Origin: Sphaerochaeta associata
GTDB taxonomy: Bacteria > Spirochaetota > Spirochaetia > Sphaerochaetales > Sphaerochaetaceae
Reading direction: 5' to 3'
NCBI RefSeq assembly: GCF_022869165.1
Contig: NZ_CP094929.1
Coordinates: 434,001-498,000, forward strand
DNA length: 64,000 nt
Part shown: positions 11,561 to 48,020 of the stretch, in pieces
Numbering within the stretch: position 1 is the first letter of the stretch
How the letters are laid out: every line of letters begins with the position of its first letter
Notes under the pieces: model-generated
The model's input: only the letters and a program-made list of their open reading frames with translations
Told to the model about the DNA's origin: nothing
Databases searched by the model: none
Made by a program: the position numbers and the translations under genes

Positions 11561-13033
11561 GTGCTCAACATGTCCCAAATCAATTGTATCAGAGATTTGA
11601 GGAAAGAGGGATACTCAGTGGCAAGGATTGCCAGGGAAGTATCGGTCGATGAGAAGACGGCGAGGAAGTACCTCTGCATGGAAGACTTCTCACCGAAGCC
11701 GCCTCAAAAGAAGGAGGGGTTGCCCAGCAAGCTGGACCCCTACAAGCCGCAGATAGACGGATGGCTTTCCAACGATGAAAAGGAGAATTCGAAACAGCGC
11801 CATACCGCCCAGCGCGTCTATGACAGGTTGGTGGAGCTGCATCCGGAATTCGGTTGCTCCTACCCAACGGTATCGCGGTATGTGAGGAAAACACGTGCAC
11901 AACGCTCGAGTTACAGGGCCTGCCAGGAGCTGGTATGGCATCCGGGTGAGGCCCAGGGGGACTTCGGCGAGGCGGACTGCTATGAAAGAGGCGTCAAGCA
12001 GCGCAAGCATTATCTTGTCTGCGTGTTTCCGAATTCAAATGCGGATTTTCCCCAGATGTTCAACGGAGAGACCAGCGAATGCATCTGCCAGGGCTTTCAG
12101 GACGTCTTTGAGTTCATCGGCGGAGTCTTCCCCCTGGTTGTGATAGACAATGCCACCGGAGCAGGTCGTCGCATCGGGCAGGAGATACGGGAAGCGAAGC
12201 TCTTCGCCCAATTCAGGGCTCACTACGGCTTCTCCATACGATTCTGCAGTCCGGGTAGTGGATGGGAAAAGGGGTGCGTCGAGAATAAAATCGGCACGGT
12301 CCGCAGGAACCGGTTCGTTCCCCTGCCCGAGTTCGACGACCTGCAGCAATACAACAAGGGCTTGCTGGAGCAGGCGACGAGCTTTCAGGGAAATACCCAT
12401 TACAAGAAGAACACAATCATAGGCGAGCTTTTCGAACAGGACCGCGAGGCACTGCTGCCGCTGCCCCGACACCGTTTTGATGTCTGTCGGTATGTGTACG
12501 CCAAGGCCGACGGGTACGGGAAGGTGGAGATTGACGGCAACCACCATTACTCAACCCGTCCCGAATACCGGGGAAGCGAAGTGCTGGTGGGCATCCGGGC
12601 CCACACCGTCGACATCTATGACGAGAAGCGCAAGATCCTGGTGAGCCACGTCCGCAAATTCGGCAAGGAGCGGTCCGACAGCGTCGACCCAAGAACCTCC
12701 ATGGCCGTACTCATGAGAAATGTGGGAGCGTGGCCCAACAGCGGTGTGAGGGAGATGGTGTCCTCCCCCGTACGCGATTATCTCGATGCGCTGGACAGGG
12801 AATCGCTGAAGGATGCCCTGCGAACGATGAACCTGCTGAGCGAGCGCTACAGCTTCGAAAGAGCACTTGATGCGTTCGACCTGGTGCTGAGGAACCCCGG
12901 CAACGCCCCGTTCAGCGATGCAATGGTGTTTGCGGCGAGGATGGCGGAGTTCGGGGACCAAACCGACCTGGACGCCGGTCCCGACCTTTCGTTGTACGAC
13001 CAGCTTCTGGAACAACGGAGGGTGCAGCCATGA
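11561..13033 (+). CDS. istA: IS21-family transposase IstA (copy 2)
   Basis: 490 residues, the same protein as the copy at 3690, including helix-turn-helix and the D-D-E candidates at residues 134, 196 and 241. The GTG at 11561 or ATG at 11570 are the possible starts. Appears fully intact and able to move both copies. Confidence 0.97.
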   Translation: MLNMSQINCIRDLRKEGYSVARIAREVSVDEKTARKYLCMEDFSPKPPQKKEGLPSKLDPYKPQIDGWLSNDEKENSKQRHTAQRVYDRLVELHPEFGCSYPTVSRYVRKTRAQRSSYRACQELVWHPGEAQGDFGEADCYERGVKQRKHYLVCVFPNSNADFPQMFNGETSECICQGFQDVFEFIGGVFPLVVIDNATGAGRRIGQEIREAKLFAQFRAHYGFSIRFCSPGSGWEKGCVENKIGTVRRNRFVPLPEFDDLQQYNKGLLEQATSFQGNTHYKKNTIIGELFEQDREALLPLPRHRFDVCRYVYAKADGYGKVEIDGNHHYSTRPEYRGSEVLVGIRAHTVDIYDEKRKILVSHVRKFGKERSDSVDPRTSMAVLMRNVGAWPNSGVREMVSSPVRDYLDALDRESLKDALRTMNLLSERYSFERALDAFDLVLRNPGNAPFSDAMVFAARMAEFGDQTDLDAGPDLSLYDQLLEQRRVQP

Positions 13034-13821
13034 TGATGACTTCAACCATCCGCATCCAACGTAGGGAAGAGATATCGGACATGTGCCGGAAACTGTTCCT
13101 TTCCCAACAACTGGTAGCGTTGTGCCAGCAGGCAACGCCGAGGCAGGAAGAGTTCCTGCATGACGTGCTGTCAATGGAGGTGGAGAGCCGGGAACGCTCA
13201 AAACGCTCCAGGCTGCTCAACCGGGCCCGGTTTCCCATGCCCAAGAGCATGGAAGGCTACGACTATTCTCATGTGCGCCTGCCGCCTTCCATTACCAGGG
13301 TGGAACTGGAAGGCTGCGAATTCATTGGCAGGAAGACCAACCTGGTCTGCTATGGACCGGTGGGAACCGGGAAAACGCATATGGCCATAGCACTGGGGAT
13401 GAAGGCCTGCGAGATGGGCCTTGCAGCCCGGTTCTATACGGTGACCGAGCTGGTGCTGAAACTGGCCGAGGCACGGAAGAACGGAGTCTTGGAACGCTTG
13501 GTGTCGGACATACGCAGACTGGATCTGCTCATTCTTGATGAGTGGGGGTACGTACCGGTGGACAAGGAGGGGTCCCAGCTCCTGTTCCGCATCATCAGCG
13601 ACAGCTACGAGAGCAAAAGCCTCATTCTTACGACGAACCTCGAGTTTTCCAAGTGGGGTGGCATCTTCACCGACCAGCAGATGGCTGCAGCAATGATCGA
13701 CAGGCTCATCCACCATGGGCACCTGCTTGTGTTCGAGGGGCAGAGCTACCGGATGGAGCATGCATTGATGCGGAAGACCGCATCCGAGCGGTCGAAAGGG
13801 GGTGACGAACATGGTCGTTGA
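13030..13821 (+). CDS. istB: IS21-family helper ATPase IstB (copy 2)
   Basis: 263 residues, the same as the first copy, with intact Walker A (GPVGTGKT) and Walker B (LLILDEWG). Overlaps istA by 4 bases. Confidence 0.97.
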   Translation: MMMTSTIRIQRREEISDMCRKLFLSQQLVALCQQATPRQEEFLHDVLSMEVESRERSKRSRLLNRARFPMPKSMEGYDYSHVRLPPSITRVELEGCEFIGRKTNLVCYGPVGTGKTHMAIALGMKACEMGLAARFYTVTELVLKLAEARKNGVLERLVSDIRRLDLLILDEWGYVPVDKEGSQLLFRIISDSYESKSLILTTNLEFSKWGGIFTDQQMAAAMIDRLIHHGHLLVFEGQSYRMEHALMRKTASERSKGGDEHGR

Positions 13822-22453: not shown

Positions 22454-23560
22454 ATGGAAACTTTACTATTCTACATTTCCAATATTTCGAAAGGTGGTGC
22501 CCAACGGGTCATCACCACGCTTTCAAATCATTTTTCTGAAAAATATCACGTTATTCTTGTAACAACTACCGTCGGAGAAGGAACATATCCTCTGAATCCG
22601 AATATTACTCATCTATCGTTGGATTTTGCTGCAGAAGACATAAAAGCGAACAAGCTTACAAAGAATCGTAAGCGAAATATACGGTTCAAACAAATAATAC
22701 AAAGGTATCAACCTTCTGTAATTATTACCTTTCTTGAGCGGGAAATCTTGAGGGTACTGTACTTGAAACCTCAGCTCTCCGTACCTGTAATCATTTCATT
22801 CAGAAATGATCCCAATGTTGACTATTCCTCTTGGCTGCAACGGTTCGCTATCATGAGATTGATCAAACGAGCCGACGGCATCGTATTTCAGACTCCTGAT
22901 GCCAAACAGTTTTTTACTGGTCATTATTCTAGTAAGGACACAATAATTCCTAACCCTATACATCCAACTTTCCTTAAAGAGAGGGCCATTGGGTCTCGTG
23001 ATGCACGTATTGTAACCGTAGGGAAGTTATTCCCTCAGAAGAATCATGCACTGCTCATTCGCTCGTTTGCACATATTGCATCAGAATTTCCTGAACATAC
23101 CCTAGAGATATACGGTGAAGGAGAATTGAGAAACTCATTGCAGCAGTTGATTGATTCATTTGGATTGCAATCAAGAATTTTCCTTAAGGGTGTCAGAAAT
23201 GATATCGAGAAAGTATTGGAGCAAGCAGCTCTCTTTGTGCTCTCCTCGGACTATGAGGGTGTCTCCAACGCTCTCATGGAGGCAATGGCTTTAGGGCTTC
23301 CTGTGATCTCCACCGATTGTCCTTGCGGAGGCTCAGCCATGCTTATCAGACACGGAGTAAATGGATTATTGGTTCCAGTTGGGGATGAGAGAGCATTAGT
23401 TGAATCAATGCGTTCAATGGTAAATGACCCTGTTTATGCTGAAGCACTTGGTACAGTAGCTAGAAAGATTCGCCAGGAAGTAGATCCCCAAGTGGTATTT
23501 GCATCTTGGGAATCCTTCATTCATGATGTAGTCAGTATGGGTAAAGAAATCGATGAGTAG
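22454..23560 (+). CDS. GT4-family glycosyltransferase
   Basis: 368 residues. The start FYISNISKGGAQRVITTLSNHF is the glycine-rich acceptor loop of the GT4 group that includes N-acetylgalactosamine transferases. IVTVGKLFPQKNHALLIRSFA begins the donor domain, and SSDYEGVSNALMEAMALGLPVISTDCPCGG is the E-x7-E nucleotide-sugar site (EGVSNALMEAMA). It overlaps the next gene by 8 bases. Likely adds a hexose or HexNAc to the growing unit. Confidence 0.9.
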   Translation: METLLFYISNISKGGAQRVITTLSNHFSEKYHVILVTTTVGEGTYPLNPNITHLSLDFAAEDIKANKLTKNRKRNIRFKQIIQRYQPSVIITFLEREILRVLYLKPQLSVPVIISFRNDPNVDYSSWLQRFAIMRLIKRADGIVFQTPDAKQFFTGHYSSKDTIIPNPIHPTFLKERAIGSRDARIVTVGKLFPQKNHALLIRSFAHIASEFPEHTLEIYGEGELRNSLQQLIDSFGLQSRIFLKGVRNDIEKVLEQAALFVLSSDYEGVSNALMEAMALGLPVISTDCPCGGSAMLIRHGVNGLLVPVGDERALVESMRSMVNDPVYAEALGTVARKIRQEVDPQVVFASWESFIHDVVSMGKEIDE

Positions 23561-24464
23561 CATTGCATATAAAATTCGGAAAGGGTTGAAGAATCCTCAT
23601 ATCGTTGGAGAATATCTGCTGGAGAGGAAACTAGCCAGAATTATTCCCGATCGATTATATCTGTCTTGGCTGTATAGGTTAAAGATGGGAATGTCCCTTA
23701 ACTTGAAAAATCCGACAACATTCAATGAGAAACTTCAGTGGTTGAAGCTCCATGACCATAATCTTCTCTATCCTTCCTTGGTCGACAAGTATGAAGTTCG
23801 GCAGTTTGTGAAGGATACAATTGGAGAACAATACTTGATTCCGTTGCTGGGAGTCTATAATACAGTAGATGAGATTGAATTCTCCACTCTTCCTGGAACA
23901 TTCGTTCTCAAGCCAACCCACACTTCTGGTGATGTCATATTATGCAAAGATAAAGATCTGCTTTCTCCTGAATTAACCAAGCAGAAGATGAATATGTGGT
24001 TACAGAAACGCTATTTTTGGGGTCTTCGAGAATGGCCTTATAAACATATTAATCCACGTATTATTTGTGAATCAATGATACAAACTGAAGATGGAAGGAG
24101 TCCAAAGGATTACAAGATTTTTTGTTTTCATGGAGTGCCCAAATTTGCCTTTGTTGCGTCAGATAGGGGAGTCGACACTAAGTTTGATTTCTTTGATGTT
24201 GATTGGAATCGTCAACCTGTCAAACAGCATTACTCTACGAGCAATTATGATTTACCAAAACCTTTGCAATGGGATGAAATGCTTCAATTAGCTAGGAAAC
24301 TCTCACAAGGTATCCCACATGTACGAGTGGATTTTTATATCGATGTTGCAGGACGCATATTTTTTGGAGAACTGACATTTTTCCATTTCTCAGGTTTAGA
24401 AAAATTTGAGCCTGACTCCTATGATACCCTACTGGGTAGTTGGATTGATTTGGCAGCCTTATGA
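23553..24464 (+). CDS. TupA-like ATP-grasp protein of polysaccharide synthesis
   Basis: 303 residues. The stretches YRLKMGMSLNLKNPTTFNEKLQWLKLHD, LKPTHTSGDVILCKD and DYKIFCFHGVPKFAFVASDRG fit the ATPgrasp_TupA family, known from teichuronopeptide synthesis and common in O-antigen loci. ATP-grasp enzymes join a carboxylate to an amine or thiol, so an amino-acid or amide link to a uronic-acid sugar is possible; that is inference. It is fitting that the locus has a UDP-aminouronic acid pathway. It overlaps both neighbours by 4-8 bases. Confidence 0.8.
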   Translation: MSSIAYKIRKGLKNPHIVGEYLLERKLARIIPDRLYLSWLYRLKMGMSLNLKNPTTFNEKLQWLKLHDHNLLYPSLVDKYEVRQFVKDTIGEQYLIPLLGVYNTVDEIEFSTLPGTFVLKPTHTSGDVILCKDKDLLSPELTKQKMNMWLQKRYFWGLREWPYKHINPRIICESMIQTEDGRSPKDYKIFCFHGVPKFAFVASDRGVDTKFDFFDVDWNRQPVKQHYSTSNYDLPKPLQWDEMLQLARKLSQGIPHVRVDFYIDVAGRIFFGELTFFHFSGLEKFEPDSYDTLLGSWIDLAAL

Positions 24465-25951
24465 CAAGAAAACAGAAACTTATTCTAAATACAGCAAGCT
24501 CACTTATTCATCAATTGATTACTGTTGTATGTGGAATCATTCTTCCTCGTGCCTATATCGCATCATTTGGGTCGGAAGTAAATGGCTTGGTTGCTTCCAT
24601 CACCCAATTCATATCCATAATTACCTTCCTGGAATTAGGCGTAGGAGCAGTAGTCCAAGCTGCATTATACTTTCCACTTGCTAAGAAAGAGACTGAGGAG
24701 ATCAGCCGCATTATTATCTCCTCCAATAGGTTTTTTAAAAAGATAGGTGGGATTCTTATCCTTTACTCTCTCGTACTGTTTTTTCTCTACCCTATGTTGA
24801 TTGACACAACACATTCCTTTTTCTATACAGGATCTTTAGTAGCCATTCTTGCACTCAGTGCGTTTGCGCAGTATTTCTTCGGTATTTCTTATCAGCTGTT
24901 ATTACAGGCGGACCAACTCGCTTTTGTCGCCTTGCTCACCAATACCGTAACGGTAATCATAAATACAATAGTTGTCCTGTTGTTGATCAAGTACGAAAAA
25001 TCCGTACAAATTGTAAAACTTGTATCTTCGATGATATTTCTTATTCGTCCAATTATCTTCCAGATTGTTGTAAAAAAACGCTATAGATTGCAGCTTTCCA
25101 TCCCGCTCCATGTTGAGCCAATTAAACAGAAATGGAATGGCATCGCCCAACATATCGCCTCTGTTGTACTCAATAGTACGGATATTGTTGTATTAACCGT
25201 TTTCAGTTCCTTCAGCCTGGTATCGGTATATTCGGTGTATTATCTTGTCGTCAATAGTATTAAGAAAATCTTGATATCCTTTACGTCAGGGTTCCAAGCC
25301 CTCTTTGGCAATATGCTTTCAAATAATGAACTTTCCAAATTGAATCAAGCATTTGAGAAGTTTGAATGGATAATGCATACCTTTGTGACTATTTTCTTCA
25401 CGTGTACCGGGATTCTTATAATCCCCTTTATTATAGTCTATACAGCAACAATTACCGACTATGAATATGTGTATCCGGTCTTTGGTATCCTGCTGGTTGT
25501 TGCACATGCGCTCTATTGTATTCGGCTTCCATACAACCAACTTGTGCTTGCTGCAGGGCATTTCAAAGAGACCCAGACAAGTGCAATTATTGAAGCCAGT
25601 ATAAACATTGTAATCTCGATTGTATTAGTACAAGCATATGGCTTGATTGGTGTTGCATTAGGAACTCTTGTTGCAATGCTTTACCGAACAGTCTATCTGG
25701 CCTGGTATCTCTCAAAAAATATTATAAAGCGCACATTAAGGCATTTCTATCTTCACATAGTTGTAGATGCTATATCTGTAGTGACAATGGTATGTGCTAC
25801 CCAATGGATTACTCTTTCAAGTATTTCCTTCTTTGCTTGGTTTGTTATGGCTCTCAAAGTAGTCCTAATTTGTTCAATTGTTTCTTTCTTGGTAAATGCG
25901 GTGTTTTACCCACGATTACTTAAAGCAATACCGAAGGGAATTATGCGTTGA
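24461..25951 (+). CDS. Polysaccharide flippase (Wzx/MVF-like, second copy)
   Basis: 496 residues with about fourteen hydrophobic spans, starting MTRKQKLILNTASSLIHQLITVVCGIILPRAYIASFGSEVNGLVAS, a variant of the Wzx N-terminus (FGSEVNG) common in Firmicutes and spirochaetes. It is clearly different in sequence from the flippase at 19764. Coupled to the ATP-grasp gene by ATGA. Presumed to export a second lipid-linked glycan. Confidence 0.88.
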   Translation: MTRKQKLILNTASSLIHQLITVVCGIILPRAYIASFGSEVNGLVASITQFISIITFLELGVGAVVQAALYFPLAKKETEEISRIIISSNRFFKKIGGILILYSLVLFFLYPMLIDTTHSFFYTGSLVAILALSAFAQYFFGISYQLLLQADQLAFVALLTNTVTVIINTIVVLLLIKYEKSVQIVKLVSSMIFLIRPIIFQIVVKKRYRLQLSIPLHVEPIKQKWNGIAQHIASVVLNSTDIVVLTVFSSFSLVSVYSVYYLVVNSIKKILISFTSGFQALFGNMLSNNELSKLNQAFEKFEWIMHTFVTIFFTCTGILIIPFIIVYTATITDYEYVYPVFGILLVVAHALYCIRLPYNQLVLAAGHFKETQTSAIIEASINIVISIVLVQAYGLIGVALGTLVAMLYRTVYLAWYLSKNIIKRTLRHFYLHIVVDAISVVTMVCATQWITLSSISFFAWFVMALKVVLICSIVSFLVNAVFYPRLLKAIPKGIMR

Positions 25952-26065: not shown

Positions 26066-28792
26066 GTGACGTCATTTTTATATACTGTTATCGTATATCC
26101 GATAGAATTACTTGTTGAATTGCTTTTTGTCTTCTTCTTTAAAGCTTTTGATAGTACCGGGTTTGCCATAGCTGGAATCAGTCTGATGGTAAGCTTGCTT
26201 TCTCTTCCCCTCTATCATATTGCCGATCAATTGCAGAAGAAAGAGCGGGACATGCGCATACAAATGCAGAATGGAATCCAGAGAATCAAATCAACCTTTA
26301 AGGGCGATGAGCAATACATGATTCTCTCTACTTTCTACAGGCAACACCATTATCATCCTGCATATGCTCTTCGTAGTTCTGTCAGCCTTCTCATTCAGGT
26401 TCCATTCTTTATTGCTGCCTATCAGTTTCTTTCTCATCTTCCCCATTTGCAGGCTGAAAGCTTTCTTTTCATCAAGGATCTGGGGCAACCTGATCATATG
26501 TTCATGCTCGGTTCTCTTCCAATAAATGTACTTCCATTGATAATGACCCTAATCAACATAGCAGCCGGTGCAATCTATACAAAAGGATTCCCTCTGCGAG
26601 ATAAAGTTCAGTTGTATGGTATGGCTGGGTTATTTCTTATACTTCTGTATCAGTCTCCAGCGGGGTTGGTTTTCTACTGGACCCTGAACAATGTTTTCTC
26701 ATTGGTAAAAAATATCTTTTATAAAATGAAGCAACCCTTGAAGGTGTTGTATGTTACGGCTGTCGTTGCAAGTGTTGGATTAACAGTAGCCATACTTGTT
26801 ATAAAATCAAATTTCCCTCTTAGCAAACAGCTGGTACTTTTTGCAGGTTGTGGAGGGATAATTTCCCTTCCATTTCTTGTAAAAATCGTGGGATTTATTG
26901 AGAAAAGGTATCTCTCTACCTTCTCAATGAAAAGATCAAGCGTTTTCAATGTCTATATTTTATCAATCCTGCTTCTATGGTTCCTTAGTGGCATTGTGGT
27001 GCCATCAAGCCTGATACTTTCTTCTCCTATCGAATTTGCATTCACTGGAACCGTTGAGAATCCTCTTTCCTACATGTACCATACTGCCTCATTTTTCTTG
27101 GGTTTATGTGTGGTCTGGCCTTTGTTTTTGTATGCAATGGCCAGTAGAAAAATGAGAGGGTTCTTTTCAATTATCTTTTTTATACTTTCTCTAACAGCAA
27201 TAATTAATCTTTTCATCTTCAAGGGCGACTATGGCCTTGTAAGCAAAGTATTATTGTACGATGAGCCGGCACGTCTTTCCGCTTCCTTGATCCAAACGGT
27301 ACTTCCCATTTTCATAACTATTATTCTATCAATCGGCACATTTGCTTGTATTCGAAACGGGTGGTCAAAGGTGCTTACCAGTATACTCACGATTCTCATC
27401 CTTACTTCTGCGGGAATGGGTGTATATGCTGCAGTGAATATCCAAATAGCTTATACTGCCCATGCTAAGAATGTGGCAGAGAATGTGGATAAGAGTACTC
27501 TTCATGAGATCAATCCAGTGATTCCTCTCAGCAAAACTGAAAAGAATGTAGTCGTCCTCTTTCTTGATAGAGCTATCAACTCTTTCTTGCCAATCGTATT
27601 CGAACAGTTTCCCGAGCTCACTGAGCAGTATAGAGGATTTGTCTATTATCCCAATACTGTTTCTCCTGGAAGGGTAACGCTTTCTGGTTCTCCTCCAGTT
27701 ATGGGAGGATATGAGTACACTCCGGATGCAATGAACCTGCGTAGTACCGAACGTTTGGTAGACAAGCACAACGAAGCTTCATTGGTGCTTCCAAGAATTT
27801 TTTCCGAAGCGGGATACCGTGCTTCTGTATTTGATCCTCCAATGCCTAACCATAAATGGTCAAATGACTTTACAGCCTTTCGTCCGTATCCAGAAGTACA
27901 GGTTCGTGGCTTGAATGGTGTATATTCCTATAAGTATAAAATGGAGCATCCTGAGAACGAATTATGGGGACCTGACTACGAGAGCAGAATCATCAAGCGT
28001 CGTCTTCCTATGTTTTCATTTCTAAGAACCATTTATCCTGCAGTTCGAAGTCTTTTGTATTACGAGGGCACATACTTCCTGATGGATGAGAATACGCAAA
28101 ACACCAACAGTTTTATTAATGCATATTCTGTGCTGTATTACCTTCCCCAGCTTACTGCGATTGATAGCGCAAAAGGATCATATGTCTTTCTTGTCAATGA
28201 TACTCCACACGAACCAATTTTCTTACAAGCCCCAGAATATGTGCCAGTTGTAAAAGTAACAGATATATCGAACCCTCTCCAAGCTGATACGTATTACGAT
28301 CAGAAAGCTCAGATACATTATCATGCCAATGTAGCGGCACTACGAAAGGTAGGTGAATGGTTGGAATTTCTCAAACAAGAGGGAGTATACGACAACACGA
28401 GAATTATCATTGTTGCTGATCATGGGAATAATTTGAAAGCACCGGTTTTCAAAGATTTTGAGCAACTAAAAGAGGTCCTTGCGGCATACCACCCATTGTT
28501 CATGGCTAAGGATTTCTATGCATCCGAAGAATTTTCTACTGACACTCAGTTTATGACAACTGCGGACGTTCCTGCCATGGCTATCAAGGATCTACCCGTT
28601 TCAACCATAAATCCTTTCACTAAAAATGACTTGTTTTCTGTTATTGAGAAAGATGTAGTTAATGTGTACTCATCCTCTTCAGAGCCAAACAACAATAGGG
28701 GTAACACATTTAGTTTTAATTATTCAGAGAGCTTTTCTGTACATGATTCAGTGTTTGATGAGGCTAATTGGAAGCACATTAGTCCAAAATGA
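26066..28792 (+). CDS. YidC/Oxa1-like domain fused to an alkaline-phosphatase-superfamily (sulfatase/phosphotransferase-like) domain
   Basis: 908 residues from a GTG preceded by AGAGGT. Residues ~1-220 look like a YidC/Oxa1/Alb3 insertase core: IELLVELLFVFFF, SLPLYHIADQLQKKERDMR, VPFFIAAYQFLSHL, and YQSPAGLVFYWTLNNVFSLVKNIFY, the last being the family's typical penultimate helix. Residues ~225-470 add more membrane spans. From ~490 on is a periplasmic domain: VVVLFLDRAINSFLP (first metal Asp), GRVTLSGSPPVMGG (possible Thr/Ser nucleophile) and IIVADHGNN (Asp-His metal pair), as in LtaS, EptA or sulfatase-like enzymes. The next gene is a CDP-glycerol-type transferase. Role: perhaps transfer or removal of a phospho-group on the glycan; not established. 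Confidence 0.8.
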   Translation: MTSFLYTVIVYPIELLVELLFVFFFKAFDSTGFAIAGISLMVSLLSLPLYHIADQLQKKERDMRIQMQNGIQRIKSTFKGDEQYMILSTFYRQHHYHPAYALRSSVSLLIQVPFFIAAYQFLSHLPHLQAESFLFIKDLGQPDHMFMLGSLPINVLPLIMTLINIAAGAIYTKGFPLRDKVQLYGMAGLFLILLYQSPAGLVFYWTLNNVFSLVKNIFYKMKQPLKVLYVTAVVASVGLTVAILVIKSNFPLSKQLVLFAGCGGIISLPFLVKIVGFIEKRYLSTFSMKRSSVFNVYILSILLLWFLSGIVVPSSLILSSPIEFAFTGTVENPLSYMYHTASFFLGLCVVWPLFLYAMASRKMRGFFSIIFFILSLTAIINLFIFKGDYGLVSKVLLYDEPARLSASLIQTVLPIFITIILSIGTFACIRNGWSKVLTSILTILILTSAGMGVYAAVNIQIAYTAHAKNVAENVDKSTLHEINPVIPLSKTEKNVVVLFLDRAINSFLPIVFEQFPELTEQYRGFVYYPNTVSPGRVTLSGSPPVMGGYEYTPDAMNLRSTERLVDKHNEASLVLPRIFSEAGYRASVFDPPMPNHKWSNDFTAFRPYPEVQVRGLNGVYSYKYKMEHPENELWGPDYESRIIKRRLPMFSFLRTIYPAVRSLLYYEGTYFLMDENTQNTNSFINAYSVLYYLPQLTAIDSAKGSYVFLVNDTPHEPIFLQAPEYVPVVKVTDISNPLQADTYYDQKAQIHYHANVAALRKVGEWLEFLKQEGVYDNTRIIIVADHGNNLKAPVFKDFEQLKEVLAAYHPLFMAKDFYASEEFSTDTQFMTTADVPAMAIKDLPVSTINPFTKNDLFSVIEKDVVNVYSSSSEPNNNRGNTFSFNYSESFSVHDSVFDEANWKHISPK

Positions 28793-28811
28793 GCAAAGGA
28801 GACTTAAGTAG

Positions 28812-30047
28812 ATGATACTTTTCTATATAGACCCCGGTACAGGGAGCATGCTTTTTTCCATAGTCATTGGTTTGGTGACTATGCTCTATTTTCTTGGAAA
28901 AGCAGCATTCATTAAGGTAAAGTTTATTCTCTCTGGAGGAAAAGCAACCACTTCGAAAAATCATTATCCTTTGGTCATTTATTCTGAAAGCAAGCGGTAT
29001 TGGAATGTTTTTAAGCCAGTTCTAGATGCATTGGAAAGAAAAGCTATTCCAACTGTGTATTACGCATCATCAGAAGACGACCCAGTCTTCTCAGTAGCAT
29101 ATAAACATATTACAAGTGAGTTTATTGGGGAAGGCAACAAAGCTTTCACTCGATTGAATTTCCTTGAGGCAGATGTGTGCTTGATGACTACTCCTGGTCT
29201 GGATGTCTATCAGCTCAAGCGCTCAAGAGGCGTTAAGCACTATGCCCATATCCTGCACTCAGTTGATGACGCAACAGGATATCGACTTTTTGGGTTAGAC
29301 TATTTTGATTCTGTACTCCTTTCTGGCGAATATCAAAAAGCGCATATTCGGCTTTTGGAAACACAAAGAGGTATCAAAGAAAAAGAGTTGGTAGTTGTTG
29401 GATGTCCCTACCTTGATGAGCTGCAAAAGAAAGTAGCAGATCTGCCTAAACGAAAGAATGAATCCTTTACGGTACTCGTGGCTCCTTCATGGGGAAAAAG
29501 TGGGATTCTGAGTAGATATGGAGCATCTCTTCTTGATTCCTTGGTACAAACAGGATTCTCAATTATTGTGAGACCTCACCCACAATCGAAACAATCAGAA
29601 AAAGAGATACTTGAAGCTCTAGAAATGCGATACAAGGCCGCTCAGAATCTCGAGTGGGATTATTCTAATGAGAATCTGAATGTCCTTTCTCGGTCGGACA
29701 TCATGATATCTGACTTTTCAGGAGTTATCTTTGATTATGCGTTTCTCTTTAATAAACCGTTTCTTTACGTGAATAGTAATTTTGATGCTCGACCGTATGA
29801 TGCATACGATCTAGAAGAACAGCCGTGGAAATTCCGGGTCCTTCCTGAAATTGGAGTTGAACTTCAAGAAAACGACTTTGGGAGAATCGGTCAACTTATT
29901 CTTGAAACAAGCAAGAGTTCGATACTTGAGGAAAAAAGAAAGAATGCCAATGCTACAGCATGGCAATACAAAGGGAAGAGCGGCGAGATGGTTGCCGATT
30001 TCTTGGTTGGTGTTCTTGCTGGACTGAAAGAAAGCAAGGATATGTAA
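28812..30047 (+). CDS. CDP-glycerol:glycerophosphotransferase-family protein
   Basis: 411 residues with a hydrophobic N-terminus (YIDPGTGSMLFSIVIGLVTMLYFLG, one span) followed by a GT-B-like TagB/TagF-type domain: KHYAHILHSVDD, VLVAPSWGKSGIL, IIVRPHPQSKQSEKE and MISDFSGVIFDYAFLFNKPFLYV. RPHP and SDxSGxxFDY are the conserved motifs of the family (Pfam Glyphos_transf). It would transfer glycerol phosphate or a related polyol phosphate from a CDP donor. Good ribosome site AAAGGAGA. It starts 19 bases after the YidC-fusion gene, so the two are probably expressed together. No tagD-like CDP-glycerol synthetase is in the window. Confidence 0.85.
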   Translation: MILFYIDPGTGSMLFSIVIGLVTMLYFLGKAAFIKVKFILSGGKATTSKNHYPLVIYSESKRYWNVFKPVLDALERKAIPTVYYASSEDDPVFSVAYKHITSEFIGEGNKAFTRLNFLEADVCLMTTPGLDVYQLKRSRGVKHYAHILHSVDDATGYRLFGLDYFDSVLLSGEYQKAHIRLLETQRGIKEKELVVVGCPYLDELQKKVADLPKRKNESFTVLVAPSWGKSGILSRYGASLLDSLVQTGFSIIVRPHPQSKQSEKEILEALEMRYKAAQNLEWDYSNENLNVLSRSDIMISDFSGVIFDYAFLFNKPFLYVNSNFDARPYDAYDLEEQPWKFRVLPEIGVELQENDFGRIGQLILETSKSSILEEKRKNANATAWQYKGKSGEMVADFLVGVLAGLKESKDM

Positions 30048-30159: not shown

Positions 30160-31407
30160 ATGTCTAATTCTCGTTCTATGGACCTCTTTGACCATATATG
30201 TGATGCCTCACTGTTAATCTTTTTTCCTGTTTTGGTAGTTCTTGGAACAAATGCCAAGAAGTTTTTTATACCGGTAGAGATTCTGTTCTTGTCGGTTTTT
30301 ACCATTAGGTTCTTTGTAAAACGGTCTACACTCTCTTTATATACTATTTGGACAATAGGGCTTTCGCTGTTGGCGCTAGTCTCTACAACGTATGCACCAA
30401 ACCAAACAGCTGCTATGCGTTGGGCTATTTCTGTTATACAAGTTGTAATCTTTGGCAATTTGCTGGTCCCCTATTTTCGAGACGATAAAAGAAATGTCCA
30501 TGTTTTCTTCCTTTCGTTTATACTTTCTGCTGTCGGATTAGGATTTCGCTTGTGGATGTCAGCTCCTCCTGAGCAATTGATGAATACTCGTCTGGGTGAA
30601 TCAATTGGTTTTAACGCAAATTTTGTGGGTTTCATATTTGCCATTGCGGCACTTATAAACTTGTATTACGTTATTCTGGAAAAACGCTGGATAGCTCTTC
30701 CTTTGTTTTTTGTGTTAAGTGTAATTGGTTTGTTCTCAGGTTCACGTAAAACCATGATAATTCTTTTTGTTGGTATAGTTCTCTTGTCAATTTTATCATC
30801 TCGAAAACCACATACAATTTTCATATCGATGATTCTTAGCTTGTTATTTGTTGCTGGGTTTCTCCTGATATCCTTTCAATGGGAGCCATTGAAAAATATA
30901 ATTGGATATAGAATTCAAATTTTCTTAACAACTTTTACAGGCCAATCGATTGATGCGAGTGCAAATGAACGAATAGAGATGATTCGCCTCGGGATTGATA
31001 TGATCAAGCAAAAACCATTTTTTGGTTGGGGCTTGCATGCATTTTCAGACTTAGAGAAATTTGGAGTATATTCTCATAATAATTATATAGAAATTGCTGT
31101 CTCTTGGGGCATGTTTGGCCTAATTTGGTACTATCTATTTTTGGGTTATGTAATTATAAAAGGAATCGGGATTCTGCTTTCTCGACATCGTACTAGCCTT
31201 GTGGTTTTCTCTGTGATGATGCTACTCATTCTTTGCTTGGATGATTTCGGTCGTGTTCGTTTTTATGATGAGGTTTCACACATATTATATGCACTTTGTT
31301 ATGCAATTATTGTTATGCATCTTCCACTTAGAGGTATCGATATCATTAGCTTGTTGATCAAACCTTTCCAGCGGTTTATTCATATAAAATCCCTCAGACA
31401 AGAGTAA
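30160..31407 (+). CDS. O-antigen polymerase / ligase-like membrane protein (second copy)
   Basis: 415 residues, about eleven hydrophobic spans. The Wzy_C-type loop holds RIEMIRLGIDMIKQKPFFGWGLHAFSDLEKFGVYSHNNYIEIAVSWGMFGLI, with the GWG and SHNNYIE pattern typical of O-antigen ligase and polymerase proteins. It differs from the one at 18364. Its TAA stop (31405-31407) forms part of the 7-bp target duplication of the IS element that follows, so the coding region is just preserved. Likely polymerises the second glycan, or attaches it to its carrier. Confidence 0.85.
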   Translation: MSNSRSMDLFDHICDASLLIFFPVLVVLGTNAKKFFIPVEILFLSVFTIRFFVKRSTLSLYTIWTIGLSLLALVSTTYAPNQTAAMRWAISVIQVVIFGNLLVPYFRDDKRNVHVFFLSFILSAVGLGFRLWMSAPPEQLMNTRLGESIGFNANFVGFIFAIAALINLYYVILEKRWIALPLFFVLSVIGLFSGSRKTMIILFVGIVLLSILSSRKPHTIFISMILSLLFVAGFLLISFQWEPLKNIIGYRIQIFLTTFTGQSIDASANERIEMIRLGIDMIKQKPFFGWGLHAFSDLEKFGVYSHNNYIEIAVSWGMFGLIWYYLFLGYVIIKGIGILLSRHRTSLVVFSVMMLLILCLDDFGRVRFYDEVSHILYALCYAIIVMHLPLRGIDIISLLIKPFQRFIHIKSLRQE

Positions 31408-31486: not shown

Positions 31487-31515
31487 GTGACAAAAGCTCC
31501 AAACATAGGTATAAT
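31487..31515 (+). promoter_or_regulatory. Transposase promoter of element A
   Basis: GTGACA (31487-31492), 17 bp, TATAAT (31510-31515). The -10 is perfect and the -35 matches five of six. The same sequence is present in copy 1 near 7314-7342. It shows that the GTG at 31487 cannot be the translation start. Confidence 0.75.
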
Positions 31516-31522
31516 TGTATCT

Positions 31523-33181
31523 ATGATAGATGCCAATGCAAAACCGATGAAAATCATCCGTGTCACCAACAAGAAGAACGGTGTCACCTACCTCTACGAG
31601 GACCAGGCCTTCTGGAACAGCGAGAAGAAGCGCGGCGAGCACAAGCGAAAGTGCATCGGCCGACTCGGTCCGGATGGAAGCGAGATATACAACGATTTCT
31701 ACCTGGCCAGGAAGGAAGCCTCCAAGGCCGAGAATCCGCTTGTCTCGAAAACCACCCTGATGGGACAGAACCTCATCCTGGACAAGGTGGTCAAGGACGT
31801 CGGCATACAGCCTGTTCTGAAGGAAGCCTTCGGAGCCGACGATGCCGATGCCATCCTTCAGCTTGCACGGTACAGCGTCTGCGAGGGCAAGGCCCTCAGC
31901 AGAGCCGAGGACTGGCTGAACGATCGTGGTTTCAACGGCAACGCTCTTTGCTCGCAGCGGATCAGCGAGCTGCTTGCCTCCCTGTCCGACGACAGGCGCA
32001 ACACCTTCTTCAAGCTTTGGATTGCCAAGCAGGCGAAGAAAAAGGCACTGCTTTTCGATATAACCTCGATTTCGTCCTATGGAAAAAACAACACCTATGT
32101 GGAGCGGGGGTACAACCGGGACCACGAGAACCTGAGGCAGATAAACCTCGGCCTGCTCAGCGCCCACTCGTCGAACGTCCCTCTCTGGTACTCGGAATTG
32201 CCCGGGAGCATGTCCGATTCACTCGTCCTCGACCATGTGCTGCGCAGCCTGGAAAAGCTCGATGTGAAGGACATCAACCTGGTCGGCGACCGGGGCTTCT
32301 ACAGCGAGGCGAACCTCAGGAACATAGCGGATAAGGGACAGAAGTTCACCATCCCCGTCCCCTCCAGCCTCAAGTGGCAGAAGGAATTGATCGACAAGGT
32401 CAGGCCCTCAATCCGAAGACCCGCCAACATCATCCGCAATCCCGAGGACGACAAGTCCTACATCTATGGCGTCACCGACTACAAGACCGAGTCCTACGGC
32501 AGGACCTGGAGGCATGTCTACTTCGACCCCGTCAGGAAGGAGCAGGACATCGCATCGCTGATGCTCAAGCTGAGAAAGTGCGAGGAGGAGCTTGCAGGCG
32601 GGGATGCCTTCGAGAAGCACAGGAACCTGTACGACACCTACTTCACCGTCAAGGATACCCCCAAGCGGGGAAGGAAGGTCAGCCTGAACGAGGAGGCCGT
32701 CAATGCCTACATCGACGGCTACAGCGGGTTCTGGATCATCCTCACCAATGCACAGAAGGATGCATCCAAGGCCCTGGGGCACTACAACCGCAGGTGCGAC
32801 ATCGAGCTGCACTTCGACGACATGAAGAACCTCTTGGACTGCAACAGGCTCAACGTGCACACAGAGAAGACCATGAAGGGCAGGCTTTTCGTCAACTTCA
32901 TCACCCTCATCCTGCTCAACGACCTGAGAGGCAAGGTCTCGGCCATCAAGCCCAGGAACAGGAAGTACTGGGATTTCAAGGACATGCTGAACAAGGTGTC
33001 GACCTATTCCAGAATCCACTTCACCGGCACCTACAAGGACCTGTGGACGGTGCCCACCAAGGCCCAGAGGCTGATCTTCAGCCTCTTAAAGATAGAGTAC
33101 CATTGGAAGGGAAAGATAGTGAATCTTGAGAAGCCAATGGAGTCTGAAGAAGATGACGAACAGGAAGACGAGGAGGCCTAG
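31523..33181 (+). CDS. IS1634-like DDE transposase (intact)
   Basis: About 552 residues from ATG 31523 (MIDANAKPMKIIR); the ATG at 31547 (MKIIRVTNKKNG) is an alternative, and both lie downstream of the visible promoter. Catalytic region: LLFDITSISSYG (Asp), LVGDRGFYSEANL (Asp) and HYNRRCDIELHFDDMKN (the Y-R-E type motif of the IS4 superfamily). The acidic C-terminus EEDDEQEDEEA is unusual. This is the only intact transposase for element A in the window and could mobilise copy 1 in trans. Confidence 0.95.
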   Translation: MIDANAKPMKIIRVTNKKNGVTYLYEDQAFWNSEKKRGEHKRKCIGRLGPDGSEIYNDFYLARKEASKAENPLVSKTTLMGQNLILDKVVKDVGIQPVLKEAFGADDADAILQLARYSVCEGKALSRAEDWLNDRGFNGNALCSQRISELLASLSDDRRNTFFKLWIAKQAKKKALLFDITSISSYGKNNTYVERGYNRDHENLRQINLGLLSAHSSNVPLWYSELPGSMSDSLVLDHVLRSLEKLDVKDINLVGDRGFYSEANLRNIADKGQKFTIPVPSSLKWQKELIDKVRPSIRRPANIIRNPEDDKSYIYGVTDYKTESYGRTWRHVYFDPVRKEQDIASLMLKLRKCEEELAGGDAFEKHRNLYDTYFTVKDTPKRGRKVSLNEEAVNAYIDGYSGFWIILTNAQKDASKALGHYNRRCDIELHFDDMKNLLDCNRLNVHTEKTMKGRLFVNFITLILLNDLRGKVSAIKPRNRKYWDFKDMLNKVSTYSRIHFTGTYKDLWTVPTKAQRLIFSLLKIEYHWKGKIVNLEKPMESEEDDEQEDEEA

Positions 33182-35634: not shown

Positions 35635-35757
35635 TAAGATATTCCGTAGATATTTTTCGCAAGACTTTGAGATGCTAGTAGGTATATATCAAGAATGAGA
35701 GAATCTAGAGTATGTTTGACGTATTACCTTGAGGAATGCGAATAGGAGGAGTGGGTG

Positions 35758-37572
35758 ATGCAAGCAATAATCTTGGCTGCTGGAATGGGTAAGCGATTAA
35801 AAGAGTTAACCAAGGATAATACAAAATGTATGATAGAGGTGAATGGAGAGACACTCATTGAGAGAATACTCACCCAGCTTGATAGTTTGAATCTCGAACG
35901 TATTGTGCTTGTGATTGGATATAAAGGTGAAAAATTAGCATCGTACGTAAAATCTCTTCCCATCAAAACTGAAATAATTTTCATCACCAACCCGATTTAT
36001 GATAAGACCAATAATATCTATTCTCTTTACTTGGCCAAAGAATATCTTCTTGAACAGGACACCTTGCTACTTGAGTCGGATCTTATTATTGAGGATGGAA
36101 TTCTTAATGTGTTGATTCAGAACCCAGATCCCAATATTGTTCTGGTGGCGAAGTATGAAAGTTGGATGGATGGTACTGTCGTCACGCTGGATGAAAGTCA
36201 ACAGATTAAAAGTTTCCTTGGTAAGAAGGATTTTCATTTTTGCGATACCATGACTTATTACAAAACAGTTAACATTTATAAATTCAGCAGAGCTTTTTCT
36301 ATGACTCATTATGTCCCATTCTTGGAAGCATATTGCAAAGCTTTGGGGAACAACGAGTACTATGAGCAAGTGCTAAAAGTCATTGCACTGCTGGACAATC
36401 CTGGAATCAAGGCATTGGTTTTGGATACGGAAAAATGGTATGAGATTGATGATATCCAAGACCTTGATATCGCCCAGACCCTGTTCGAAAAGAACAAGAA
36501 TACAAGATTTGAGAAAATGAACGCACGGTATGGAGGATTTTGGAGATTTCCTCGACTTTTAGATTACTGCTATCTGGTGAATCCGTATTATCCTCCTACC
36601 AAGTTGATTGACGAAATGCAGGCGAGTTTCACTAGTTTGATAACACAATATCCATCGGGACAAAAAGTAAACAATCTTCTTGCAGCCAATTATTATGGAC
36701 TTCATAGAGAGAATGTAATTGTCGGTAATGGTGCCGCTGAGCTGATCAAAGCAATTATGGAAAACACTGAAGGAATCATCGGAATACTTTCACCTTCGTT
36801 TGATGAGTATAGAAATCGTGTATCAGGAAATAGAATCTCACTGTTTACCGTACAATCAGATGATTTCTCGTATACTGCCGATCAGATTATTTCTCACTTT
36901 CAGAATAAACCAATCTCAACCTTGCTACTGATAAATCCCGATAACCCATCTGGAAACTACATAGAACAGCATGATGTATTGAAACTCGCTTCTTGGACAC
37001 AAGAGCGAGGTATCATATTCTTGGTCGATGAATCGTTCAGCGATTTTGCCTTGGCAAAAGAACCAAGCTCACTCTTGGACCAATCTACTCTAGAAAGGTA
37101 CACAAATTTAGTTGTAATAAAGAGTATTTCCAAATCATTTGGAGTTCCTGGCGTTCGTCTCGGCCTTTTGGCAACAACGAATAAGACTATTCTCTCAAGT
37201 GTGTCTAAAAATGTCTCCATCTGGAATATCAATTCCTTTGGAGAATTCTATATGCAGATTTGGGGAAAATATCGTGCAACCTATGAGCATGCATTGGTGA
37301 TGCTCAAGGATGAACGAGATCGTTTAGCAACAGCATTGAATCAAATTGATTATCTTACGGTGTTTCCTTCACAAGCCAACTATATTATGTGTGAGGTAAA
37401 AGGCCCGAAGAAGGCCTATGACTTGGCAGTAGAATTATTGGATTCTCATAATATTCTTATTAAGGACTTATCGAGCAAACGTGGAATCTCGCCACGGCAG
37501 TGTATTCGAATTGCTGTTCGCAACAAGGAAGATAATGATGCATTGATTAATGCTTTGAGAAGTCTTGTCTAA
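35758..37572 (+). CDS. Fused nucleotidyltransferase-aminotransferase (PntC / LicC-like)
   Basis: About 604 residues from the ATG at 35758, 7 bases after AGGAGGA. Residues 1-235 are an NTP transferase: MQAIILAAGMGKRLKELTKDNTKCM holds the nucleotide loop, then ETLIERIL, NNIYSLYLAKEYL and LLLESDLIIEDGIL, resembling LicC-type CTP:phosphocholine cytidylyltransferases. Residues ~250-604 are a class I/II PLP aminotransferase (GNGAAELIKAIM, LINPDNPSGN, LVDESFSDF, SISKSFGVPGVRLGLL with Lys459). From memory, PntC of Treponema denticola is a fusion of this kind that makes and CDP-activates 2-aminoethylphosphonate. No PEP mutase is in the window, so a phosphoethanolamine or phosphocholine-like product is also possible. 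Confidence 0.8.
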   Translation: MQAIILAAGMGKRLKELTKDNTKCMIEVNGETLIERILTQLDSLNLERIVLVIGYKGEKLASYVKSLPIKTEIIFITNPIYDKTNNIYSLYLAKEYLLEQDTLLLESDLIIEDGILNVLIQNPDPNIVLVAKYESWMDGTVVTLDESQQIKSFLGKKDFHFCDTMTYYKTVNIYKFSRAFSMTHYVPFLEAYCKALGNNEYYEQVLKVIALLDNPGIKALVLDTEKWYEIDDIQDLDIAQTLFEKNKNTRFEKMNARYGGFWRFPRLLDYCYLVNPYYPPTKLIDEMQASFTSLITQYPSGQKVNNLLAANYYGLHRENVIVGNGAAELIKAIMENTEGIIGILSPSFDEYRNRVSGNRISLFTVQSDDFSYTADQIISHFQNKPISTLLLINPDNPSGNYIEQHDVLKLASWTQERGIIFLVDESFSDFALAKEPSSLLDQSTLERYTNLVVIKSISKSFGVPGVRLGLLATTNKTILSSVSKNVSIWNINSFGEFYMQIWGKYRATYEHALVMLKDERDRLATALNQIDYLTVFPSQANYIMCEVKGPKKAYDLAVELLDSHNILIKDLSSKRGISPRQCIRIAVRNKEDNDALINALRSLV

Positions 37573-38680: not shown

Positions 38681-41026
38681 TCACCCGCTTATTGCAACTA
38701 CCATACTTTCGCCTACCTTGAGAGAGTCAGGATCGAACGAGGGCTGTGAGACGGTATACCCTTCAGGCACCTTGATGGTAAAGACTCGTTGCTTTTTAAT
38801 GGCATCAACCTTCTTGGTAATCACCAGGGATTGGTCGGTTACTTGGAACTCCCAAAGGTTATATTGCTTTCCGGCAAGCTCACTGCTTCCATCATCCTCA
38901 AAGTAGGAGGAATGTATCTCTTTCCCTGTTGTTTTACAGGGATGGACTAGAAGCTCCACCTTCTCAAACACACCGCTTTGGAGGTGTGTCAGCCCAGGAG
39001 CGGTCGGGATCACCGACCCCTCCTTGGCAAACCAGAGGCTCTCACCGTCAGGGGGATAGGGGAGTTCCAGGTTTATTCCTCCCTCGAACGCTGTTCCATC
39101 CTTGCTGTACCACCACAAGCCCTGAGGGAGGTAAACATCAGCGTTGGTTTTTCCCTTTTCGGTAACCAAGACCTTCAGAATATGCGGTCCGAACAGACTA
39201 TTGATCTCATCACCCTTGATATTGTTATCATCGGGAAACTCCAACAAGAGAGAGCGTTCGATCGGCGTACCCTCGGCAGCCGCCTCAAAAGCACAGGTAT
39301 AGATATAGGGCATGAACCGGTAGTGCTCGAGAATGAGAGAGCGGATGTGAGGCAAAGCACTCTCATACGACCACGGCTCGGTGGGATTACCGTCCTCACG
39401 CCAGGAGTGAATCACAAAGCGACCCTGAAACACCGCCGACTGGGCTGAGCGTACCAACAGCTCTTCCTCGGGAAACGCCCCGAAGAACCCACCCAAGTCA
39501 TGGCCGAAGTAAGGCAGTCCTGAAAGACTGAACCCCTGACCCATATACTGGTTGTACTTCAGTGTCTTCCAATCGCTCACATTGTCTCCCGACCACGTCC
39601 TGGCAAACCGTTGCATGCCTGCATAACCGCTTCGGCTGTAGATCCAAGGACGCTTCCGTGGTTGCTCCTGCTTGAACGCCTCGTAGGAAGCCTCTGCCAT
39701 CCGAATAGGGTAGAGGGTCTTCGTCTTGAAAGCCTCGAGCTCAACATCCTCAAGTTCCAGTTCATTGTTGTCATTCCAAATCCCGGTGCATCCGTGGTCG
39801 AGATACTGAGCCTTGAGCTGGCTCTTCCACCACTCTTTAGCCTCGGGGTTGTTGAAGTCGATGAAGGAGGCCTCCCCTCCCCAGAAGAACTCCTGATACG
39901 GCCGGCCGCTCTGGTCCTTGATGAAGTACCCCTTCTCTGCCAACTCTGTATACCACGGATGGCTGGTCAGGATTCCCGGCTTGATGTTCATGCACAAATT
40001 ATATCCACGCGCCGAGAGGGAAGTCAGAAACGCCTTGTGGTCGGGAAACTTCTGCTTGTTCCAGAGAAACGCATACCGCTTGCCCTCGGCACTCTTCAAA
40101 TAGCCTGAGGAGACATACATCCCCTCACAGGGAATCTGGTGCTCCTCAATGGTGGCAAAGTAGTTCAGGATTCTCTGTTCTGCATCATCGGGTTCGGCAT
40201 AGTTCATGGAAGAGCCGAAGAACCCAAAGCTGAACAGCGGTGGGAAGGCGGGAAAACCTGTAACCTTGAAGTAATTCTTGAGAACCTGGTGGTAGGAATC
40301 GCCCAAAAAGGTTACATAGCTGTACGGCCCGCCTTCCACCTCAACGGAGAAGAAAAACGGACTCTCCCGACCCAGGTCGAAGAGCTTGATCAAGCTCTGG
40401 TCGAAGAGCAGCCCGCACATGGCGCCGGTTTGCGCATTACGCTTGATCATAAAGGGAATGGACTTATACAGCGGATCGGAATTGGAAGCATCGTAGCCGA
40501 GGGAGTCGCGGTTGTACATGGAGAATCGTCTTCCCCTTCTGTTGGGTAAGCCGCTCTTATCCCCGAGGCCGTAGAACTCATCCGCCTCTGAAAGCGGGAA
40601 GTTGAACCTGCTGAAGGATTCCTGTGAACCTTCCTTGGTAAAGCAGCGCACCTGGTAGGAGGGCAGCACCGTGTCAGCGGTTCCCACCCGGCCACCGTGC
40701 TGCAGGATTCCCGCATACCAGATGCTGATAAGGGCGTACCGCTTCTCAAGTACCACCCTACTCAGACCGCAGGTGAGAATAAAGGCCTCGCTCTCTTCCT
40801 TTATGCTGATCTGCTCGTCCAATTGCAGAGACTTGGAAGGGCTGGTGATGTACTGGCTCGCCTTGGCGAACGTCTCATGGATGGATACGTGGTCGAACTG
40901 ATAGCTGACCTTCACAATCTCGGAGGTGAAGAACTGTATATGTATTTCACCACCGACGCCCTTGGCGATAACCAAGGAAGGGGAGTGAAAACGACATGCA
41001 GACAGAGAGTGAATGATATGTTTCAT
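38681..41026 (-). CDS. Glycoside hydrolase family 31 (alpha-glucosidase / alpha-xylosidase-like)
   Basis: 781 residues. The catalytic nucleophile is the Asp of GIWNDNNELE (near residue 417), at the site where the family has WxDMNE. The acid/base Asp is in WSGDNVSDW (near residue 480). GLPYFGHDLGGFFG and EDGNPTEPW are other GH31 landmarks. No signal peptide, so it is cytoplasmic, acting on sugars brought in by the adjacent ABC transporter. The gene starts 4 bases after the permease stop. Substrate (alpha-glucoside, alpha-xyloside or sulfoquinovoside) cannot be decided here. Confidence 0.92.
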   Translation of the reverse strand: MKHIIHSLSACRFHSPSLVIAKGVGGEIHIQFFTSEIVKVSYQFDHVSIHETFAKASQYITSPSKSLQLDEQISIKEESEAFILTCGLSRVVLEKRYALISIWYAGILQHGGRVGTADTVLPSYQVRCFTKEGSQESFSRFNFPLSEADEFYGLGDKSGLPNRRGRRFSMYNRDSLGYDASNSDPLYKSIPFMIKRNAQTGAMCGLLFDQSLIKLFDLGRESPFFFSVEVEGGPYSYVTFLGDSYHQVLKNYFKVTGFPAFPPLFSFGFFGSSMNYAEPDDAEQRILNYFATIEEHQIPCEGMYVSSGYLKSAEGKRYAFLWNKQKFPDHKAFLTSLSARGYNLCMNIKPGILTSHPWYTELAEKGYFIKDQSGRPYQEFFWGGEASFIDFNNPEAKEWWKSQLKAQYLDHGCTGIWNDNNELELEDVELEAFKTKTLYPIRMAEASYEAFKQEQPRKRPWIYSRSGYAGMQRFARTWSGDNVSDWKTLKYNQYMGQGFSLSGLPYFGHDLGGFFGAFPEEELLVRSAQSAVFQGRFVIHSWREDGNPTEPWSYESALPHIRSLILEHYRFMPYIYTCAFEAAAEGTPIERSLLLEFPDDNNIKGDEINSLFGPHILKVLVTEKGKTNADVYLPQGLWWYSKDGTAFEGGINLELPYPPDGESLWFAKEGSVIPTAPGLTHLQSGVFEKVELLVHPCKTTGKEIHSSYFEDDGSSELAGKQYNLWEFQVTDQSLVITKKVDAIKKQRVFTIKVPEGYTVSQPSFDPDSLKVGESMVVAISG

Positions 41027-47818: not shown

Positions 47819-48020
47819 CGCTGTGTCTCCTTGATGACAGCTTAGCGTGAGCCGGGGCGGTACAACAGGGTCAAAGTTTCCAAGGACCTTCTTGTATTGC
47901 GTCATTTTTTCAAAGTTCGACCTCTCTTGCAAAAAATGACGCCTGAGTGTGAAGCTAAGCTGACCGAGCTTTGGAAACTTGACTCTTATGCATATCTGAC
48001 TTCCATGCGACGATTTTGTC
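47819..48020. promoter_or_regulatory. Divergent promoter region with nested inverted repeats
   Basis: 202 bases between the fucosidase and the transporter operon. A perfect 12-bp inverted repeat GCGTCATTTTTT (47899-47910) / AAAAAATGACGC (47931-47942) is spaced 20 bases apart, so the half-sites lie about three helix turns apart. A second pair CAGCTTAGC (47838-47846) / GCTAAGCTG (47954-47962) and a third, imperfect pair around GTTTCCAA (47870-47886 and 47970-47985) are also inverted. No clear -35/-10 pair was found for either direction. Probable binding sites of a shared regulator such as the AraC protein at 53177. Confidence 0.65.

Follow-up and report, generated by a model that had tools for sequence, protein, structure and literature searches.

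A YidC-like fusion protein and its TagF-like partner as a candidate head-group transfer system in Sphaerochaeta associata

The fusion protein F and its partner T

The DNA considered here is a stretch of 64,000 nucleotides (nt) from the spirochaete Sphaerochaeta associata (contig NZ_CP094929.1, positions 434,001 to 498,000), hereafter the window, from whose first letter all window positions are counted. Two neighbouring genes on its forward strand, here called F and T, are the subject of this analysis. F (26066-28792, GTG start) encodes a 908-residue protein in which a YidC-fold domain, further membrane spans and an alkaline-phosphatase-superfamily domain follow one another, while T (28812-30047) encodes a TagF/TarL-like protein of 411 residues. 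Both open reading frames lie where an earlier reading, made from the letters without database searches (the sequence-only reading), had placed them. F and T very probably form a transfer system of some kind for phosphate- or phosphonate-linked head groups.

Residues 1-222 of F (26066-26731, forward strand) form a YidC/Oxa1-fold domain. The Pfam family PF02096 (60KD_IMP/YidC) matches residues 32-219 with 71.6 bits against a cut-off of 35 (E 9.7e-20), the domain aligns with E. coli YidC (hhalign E 2.2e-13), and the NCBIfam model yidC_oxa1_cterm gives 79.9 bits, narrowly under its cut-off of 84.3. Its helices comprise a lateral helix (2-28), a first span with the cytoplasmic hairpin (31-93) and spans at 98-123, 155-171, 177-194 and 199-219. 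In a tree of 25 F proteins and 5 canonical YidC proteins, the F domains form a clade of their own with 100/100 support. The two groups also differ at the groove position of Arg366 in E. coli YidC and Arg72 in the B. halodurans protein: it is lysine or arginine in 5 of 5 canonical YidC proteins, whereas it is Ser43 in this F and Asn, Ser, Thr, Gln or Gly, never a charged residue, throughout the 71 F proteins compared. A separate canonical YidC (G000:C1:5960) is encoded elsewhere in the genome, which is one contig of 3.55 Mb. Because of the neutral groove and the separate YidC, the label "insertase" is doubtful for the F domain. The insertase-like core proposed by the sequence-only reading thus keeps its fold, by PF02096 and hhalign, and loses the positively charged groove residue.

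Is the YidC part a decaying leftover? It is the best conserved region of F, with a median pairwise identity of 55% as against 24% in the middle spans and 37% in the catalytic domain, and 27 of the 41 invariant F residues fall within it. Tandem F copies at loci L048, L054 and L094 have YidC parts that are 89-98% alike and catalytic parts that are 46-75% alike (identities of the YidC, middle and catalytic parts of 0.97/0.41/0.46 in L048 and up to 0.98/0.50/0.63 in L094), a pattern suggestive of gene conversion or domain swapping. The conservation and near-identity show F to combine a constant part with a catalytic module that varies, and argue against a leftover in decay; such a combination would be expected if donor handling is shared and acceptors vary. 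At L048 (5318-10670), the DNA of the tandem copies is 98% identical across 660 nt of the YidC part, with the remainder diverged.

Residues 223-485 (26732-27520) hold about seven further membrane helices, an approximate count from model helices and hydropathy, and residues 486-908 (27521-28792) the alkaline-phosphatase-superfamily transferase domain, both on the forward strand. The AlphaFold model of F (71 relatives) has a mean predicted local distance difference test (pLDDT) score of 90.6 and a predicted template modelling (pTM) score of 0.84. In it, residues ~491-908 adopt the superfamily fold, and the leading Foldseek matches are PbgA/YejM (E 4.5e-9), EptA (E 5.4e-8) and LtaS. VIA-align comparisons of the model with many family members give, in most rows, Z scores of ~19-21 and a root-mean-square deviation (rmsd) of ~3.6-4.6 Å over ~275-336 residues; these mostly span residues 491-908, and the YidC part was judged from sequence profiles instead. 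The Sulfatase family PF00884 matches residues 513-792 weakly (E 0.0075, 16.1 bits, under the cut-off of 25) and is superseded by the structural match. Residues 284-908 align with residues 10-550 of PbgA, a stretch that takes in its five spans, at an rmsd of 14.9 Å over membrane and soluble parts, whose relative placement differs; the helix positions in the model agree with such spans. We read the order in the model as a YidC core, two extra spans, a probable five-span membrane part of the LtaS/EptA type and an external catalytic domain; an odd number of added spans would place this last domain outside.

D501, T538, H715, D785 and H786 show no substitution in any of the 71 F proteins. In the model, D501 stands at the end of the first strand, T538 at the start of a helix and D785-H786 after a strand, the usual arrangement in the alkaline-phosphatase superfamily. 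Low-scoring alignments set T538 against the second Thr in the GTATA stretch of EptA, and D501 against the aspartate of the YejM VDG; LtaS and EptA have a glutamate at the position of Asp501. The set of metal ligands and threonine nucleophile is complete in this putative active site. The motifs that the sequence-only reading had picked out as metal and nucleophile sites, LFLDRA (D501), TLSGSPPVMGG (T538) and IIVADHGNN (D785, H786), are those in which invariant residues lie; its YidC fold is confirmed by PF02096 and its phosphatase-superfamily domain by PbgA/YejM, EptA and LtaS as best PDB matches of the model.

T matches PF04464 (E 7.1e-12, 45.4 bits, cut-off 22.1), and its model (pLDDT 90.3) has a GT-B fold, with TagF (3l7k) as second Foldseek match (E 6.6e-11), in agreement with the TagB/F-like gene noticed beside F from the sequence alone. 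Its profile matches are TagF-like Cps3D, TarL and TagF, and the NCBIfam equivalog models for TarF and TarL give 12-14 bits against cut-offs of 550-1000. H149 and H256 are invariant in T and are, we infer, the counterparts of the catalytic histidine pair of TagF. At the N-terminus stands a single long membrane helix (8-40) carrying the motif YIDPGTGS, which is present in most T proteins and missing from several of those in Clostridia. Outside T, the motif returned just one weak plasmid match (E 8), and the literature searched held no informative paper on it.

Pairing with T and exchange of neighbouring modules

F and T belong together. Among 100 relatives, F is present in 21 and T in the same 21 (Fisher p 4.9e-22, kinship not corrected for), three further matches of the F search being canonical YidC proteins that were not counted. 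A second survey, of 299 genomes in the phylum to which a Clostridia member belongs, found the two genes together in 2 genomes and neither of them in any other. T was never seen without F in either survey, so that the co-occurrence of fusion and transferase expected by the sequence-only reading holds. A collection of 84,980 species contains at least 555 F relatives. All 78 loci retrieved from this collection show the fused architecture, which is therefore neither a chance fusion nor an assembly join. T lies on the F locus in 59 of the 78, at 200 nt or less from F in 48, and is found elsewhere in the genome for 15 of the 18 genomes whose F locus is without it. Several genomes have two or more F per single T. 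Spirochaetes and gut Clostridia together contribute hundreds of loci with the pair; plasmid-borne F relatives matched the YidC part only, none over most of F.

Two candidates for related arrangements were set aside. An apparently unfused pair of YidC-like and transferase genes (L102/L094) has reading frames that overlap and continue each other, and is probably one frameshifted F; at L102 (3225-5989) the F gene is broken by a frameshift into two overlapping frames. For a lone sulfatase-like gene near a module in L137, the resemblance to the F catalytic domain is confined to the surroundings of the D-H motif.

What the pair transfers is suggested by its neighbours. Downstream in the window, beyond the interval covered by the sequence-only reading and on the same strand, lies a head-group activation module of 605 residues (35755-37572), in which a LicC/PntC-like nucleoside triphosphate (NTP) transferase is fused to a CobD-like pyridoxal-phosphate decarboxylase. 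Structure searches with the two halves pick out PntC-AEPT (6pd1) and LicC (1jyk), and an enzyme resembling threonine-phosphate decarboxylase (6oux, E 2.5e-48); by homology, the fusion is predicted to make cytidine diphosphate (CDP)-ethanolamine or CDP-aminopropanol. In sister species the slot takes other forms. One holds phosphoenolpyruvate (PEP) mutase, phosphonopyruvate decarboxylase and a fusion of nucleotidyltransferase with aminoethylphosphonate transaminase, that is, a module for cytidine monophosphate (CMP)-aminoethylphosphonate. Another combines PEP mutase, a decarboxylase, an iron alcohol dehydrogenase and a nucleotidyltransferase, and probably yields CMP-hydroxyethylphosphonate. PEP mutase adjoins F-T in six genomes of the genus; it was not found in the S. 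associata genome (TIGR02320), and the head group in the window is for this reason not expected to be a phosphonate made by this enzyme (PepM).

Within the genus, exactly one head-group module is present in 11 of 11 genomes with F-T (6 PepM, 5 cytidylyltransferase-CobD), as compared with any module in 3 of 15 genomes without the pair (p 4.9e-5, kinship not corrected for). Over 30 loci of known module type, accounting for the module labels takes a minimum of 9 changes on the T tree and 13 on the F tree, as against a mean of 17.2 with shuffled labels. These changes point to F-T as the constant part, beside which the modules appear to have been exchanged repeatedly.

Genes around the pair

The remaining neighbours on the forward strand are those of a polysaccharide locus. 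Upstream of F lie a TupA-like ATP-grasp gene (23553-24464) and, directly before F, a probable polysaccharide flippase (24461-25951), named from position and hydrophobicity and without a Pfam match. A gene of the Wzy/O-antigen-ligase family (30160-31407) follows T, and a DDE transposase gene (31487-33181) follows in turn. These two and two glycosyltransferase genes stand between T and the module, and the separation is in part due to the transposase. The TupA-like and Wzy-like genes, separate in the window, are a single fused gene in sister species (L024:1415-3511, L032:13606-15726, L033:16124-18232), which suggests that the ATP-grasp protein and the polymerase act together.

Other loci give hints about the product. 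In L054, L070, L071, L081 and L087, the genes directly upstream of F resemble those of a nucleotide-heptose pathway, which hints that heptose may be one acceptor sugar; the resemblance comes in L081 from a fusion of an NTP transferase with a HAD phosphatase, identified by Pfam, and in the others from similar gene order and size. Proteins of 533-612 residues stand beside modules or T in four loci (L131:413-2176, L134:5901-7667, L140:9198-10799, L141:1865-3703); two match the capsule assembly protein Wzi, one of them weakly, and two have no Pfam match. The Wzi matches hint at a capsule-like product in the outer membrane.

Elsewhere in the window, an IS21-type pair of transposase and IstB occurs twice (3690-5950 and 11561-13821), enclosing ~5.6 kb; Pfam was run on the first copy, and the second was assigned from identical reading-frame lengths and spacing. 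Transposases are also encoded at 7626-9005 and, as already mentioned, at 31487-33181. A separate region downstream appears devoted to glycan degradation, with a glycoside hydrolase of family 31 (38681-41026), an alpha-L-fucosidase (46484-48037) and a classical sulfatase (51661-53127).

A proposed relay, its alternatives and its relation to known systems

We propose that F and T act as a two-enzyme system that would put a small phosphate- or phosphonate-linked head group on a cell-surface glycan. The head group would probably be ethanolamine phosphate or aminopropanol phosphate here, and 2-aminoethylphosphonate or hydroxyethylphosphonate in sister species. The neighbouring module would produce it in the cytoplasm in CDP- or CMP-activated form, and T, anchored in the membrane through the YIDPGTGS helix, would move it from the nucleotide to a carrier lipid in the membrane. 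A path across for the carrier's polar head would then be offered by the YidC-like domain of F, and the LtaS/EptA-like domain, outside, would take the head group onto Thr538 and pass it to the glycan. The assignment of F-T to such a system is well supported: sequences and models show the domains, the full complement of catalytic residues, the pairing and the exchange of modules. The relay and the crossing we infer, together with the lipid carrier, the passage through the YidC-like groove, the glycan acceptor and the exact head group; for the full relay, in which T loads the carrier, the YidC-like domain aids crossing and the catalytic domain transfers to the glycan, the chances seem about even. 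Crossing by way of the YidC-like domain has outside support, since lipid scrambling by insertases, purified E. coli YidC among them, has been reported (PMC10491306). A core that may bring a substrate to an external active site, the idea of the sequence-only reading, is in keeping with this relay. The relay is also favoured by the presence of LicD at the loci of several genomes that have a module and no F, as compared with the S. associata genome, in which neither LicD nor TagD was found.

Several observations weigh against this proposal. The acceptor of T could be a glycan and not a lipid, and the neutral groove residue, which speaks against classical insertion, is no proof of lipid transport. 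A T match was not found in 3 F-bearing genomes of uncertain completeness. Many F-T loci outside the genus have no recognised head-group module within 6 kb. LicD also occurs in several F-T loci, so that F-T is no simple replacement for it everywhere. The head-group label follows T just a little more closely than it follows F (at least 9 against at least 13 changes, raw counts); this closer fit suits T as the enzyme reading the head group.

How else could the two proteins share the work? The main rival, which we think rather unlikely, has T place the head group straight on a lipid-linked glycan in the cytoplasm, in the manner of LicD or TagB, with F acting later and outside on the finished glycan, for example by moving a glycan-phosphate unit or trimming phosphodiesters, and the YidC-like domain serving as a scaffold. 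TagF-like enzymes transfer to glycan-lipid acceptors, and T matches TagF, TarL and Cps3D; LicD, moreover, can sit in loci that have the same modules and no F (at or near the module locus in G018, G040, G056, G066 and G078). This arrangement would leave unexplained, however, why T never occurred without F in the two surveys and why a single T is often accompanied by several F copies, two at the least. A smaller probability goes to F drawing on an ordinary phospholipid, phosphatidylethanolamine (PE) or phosphatidylglycerol (PG), with T active at another step of the polysaccharide pathway to which F belongs. PE and PG are the donors for enzymes of the EptA and LtaS type, and PbgA/YejM, EptA and LtaS are the nearest solved relatives of the catalytic half of F, but the matching occurrence of F and T and their linkage to modules dependent on cytidine triphosphate (CTP) point to a dedicated donor.

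A dedicated insertase or chaperone role of the YidC-like domain, serving either the fused spans or the membrane segment of T with its YIDPGTGS motif, is improbable. The strong homology to E. coli YidC and the conserved short membrane helix in T would fit, as YidC inserts short membrane proteins (review PMC7618853); the groove residue, neutral in every F yet basic in canonical YidC, and the canonical YidC elsewhere in the genome tell against it. Finally, the phosphoglycerol substituent put forward by the sequence-only reading has in its favour the CDP-glycerol transferase Pfam domain on T and the LtaS-like catalytic half of F, but we regard it as highly improbable. A TagD-family CDP-glycerol maker was not found in the genome (TIGR01518, no match at E 1e-5), which speaks against the route via CDP-glycerol, and the products of the recurrent neighbours are CMP-phosphonates or, in the window, by prediction CDP-ethanolamine or CDP-aminopropanol.

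The nearest described logic to the proposed two-enzyme system is that of the Lic/Pnt pathway, in which a LicC or PntC cytidylyltransferase is followed by a LicD-type transferase. Both share a small head group activated by CTP and bound for the cell surface, and the activation domain in the window matches LicC and PntC structures. They differ in that LicD was not found in the S. associata genome (PF04991), transfer being the proposed task of a TagF-like enzyme and a YidC-fused transferase outside the cytoplasm. With EptA, LtaS and PbgA (YejM), F shares the external alkaline-phosphatase-superfamily domain with its threonine nucleophile and conserved acidic and histidine ligands, probably preceded as in them by a five-span membrane part, to which it adds the N-terminal YidC-fold domain, ~2 extra spans and the tie to T. 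The domain of residues 1-222 has its fold and sequence family in common with the YidC/Oxa1/Alb3 insertases; unlike them, it forms a separate clade, has a neutral groove residue, is fused to an enzyme and is not the housekeeping copy. T, in turn, has the GT-B fold, PF04464 and the two invariant histidines of TagF, TarL, TarF and Cps3D, yet falls far under the TarF/TarL equivalog cut-offs, has the YIDPGTGS helix and stands beside genes that supply donors other than CDP-glycerol. The component families are thus known. The fusion, the pairing of F with T and the tie to swappable modules were not found in the limited open-access literature searched, which returned nothing relevant on YidC-sulfatase fusions or on YidC with PepM.

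A new use of the YidC fold in F is plausible. More tentatively, and possible rather than probable, the fold may have given up its role as a protein insertase and become the half of a head-group transferase that handles membrane crossing, with a groove that would take a dedicated donor lipid's polar head through the membrane and hand it to the fused catalytic domain; F-T would then be a general system with a swappable substrate that completes the tailoring of surface glycans with phosphonates and amino-alcohol phosphates. The steps that follow CMP-aminoethylphosphonate, attachment included, have been described as unknown (PMC6697681), and F and T are concrete candidate enzymes for attaching phosphonates and related head groups to surface glycans after CTP activation. 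F is also a naturally occurring example of strong selection on a YidC-type fold whose role apparently lies outside protein insertion, and its YidC-like domain bears on the report of lipid scrambling by insertases.

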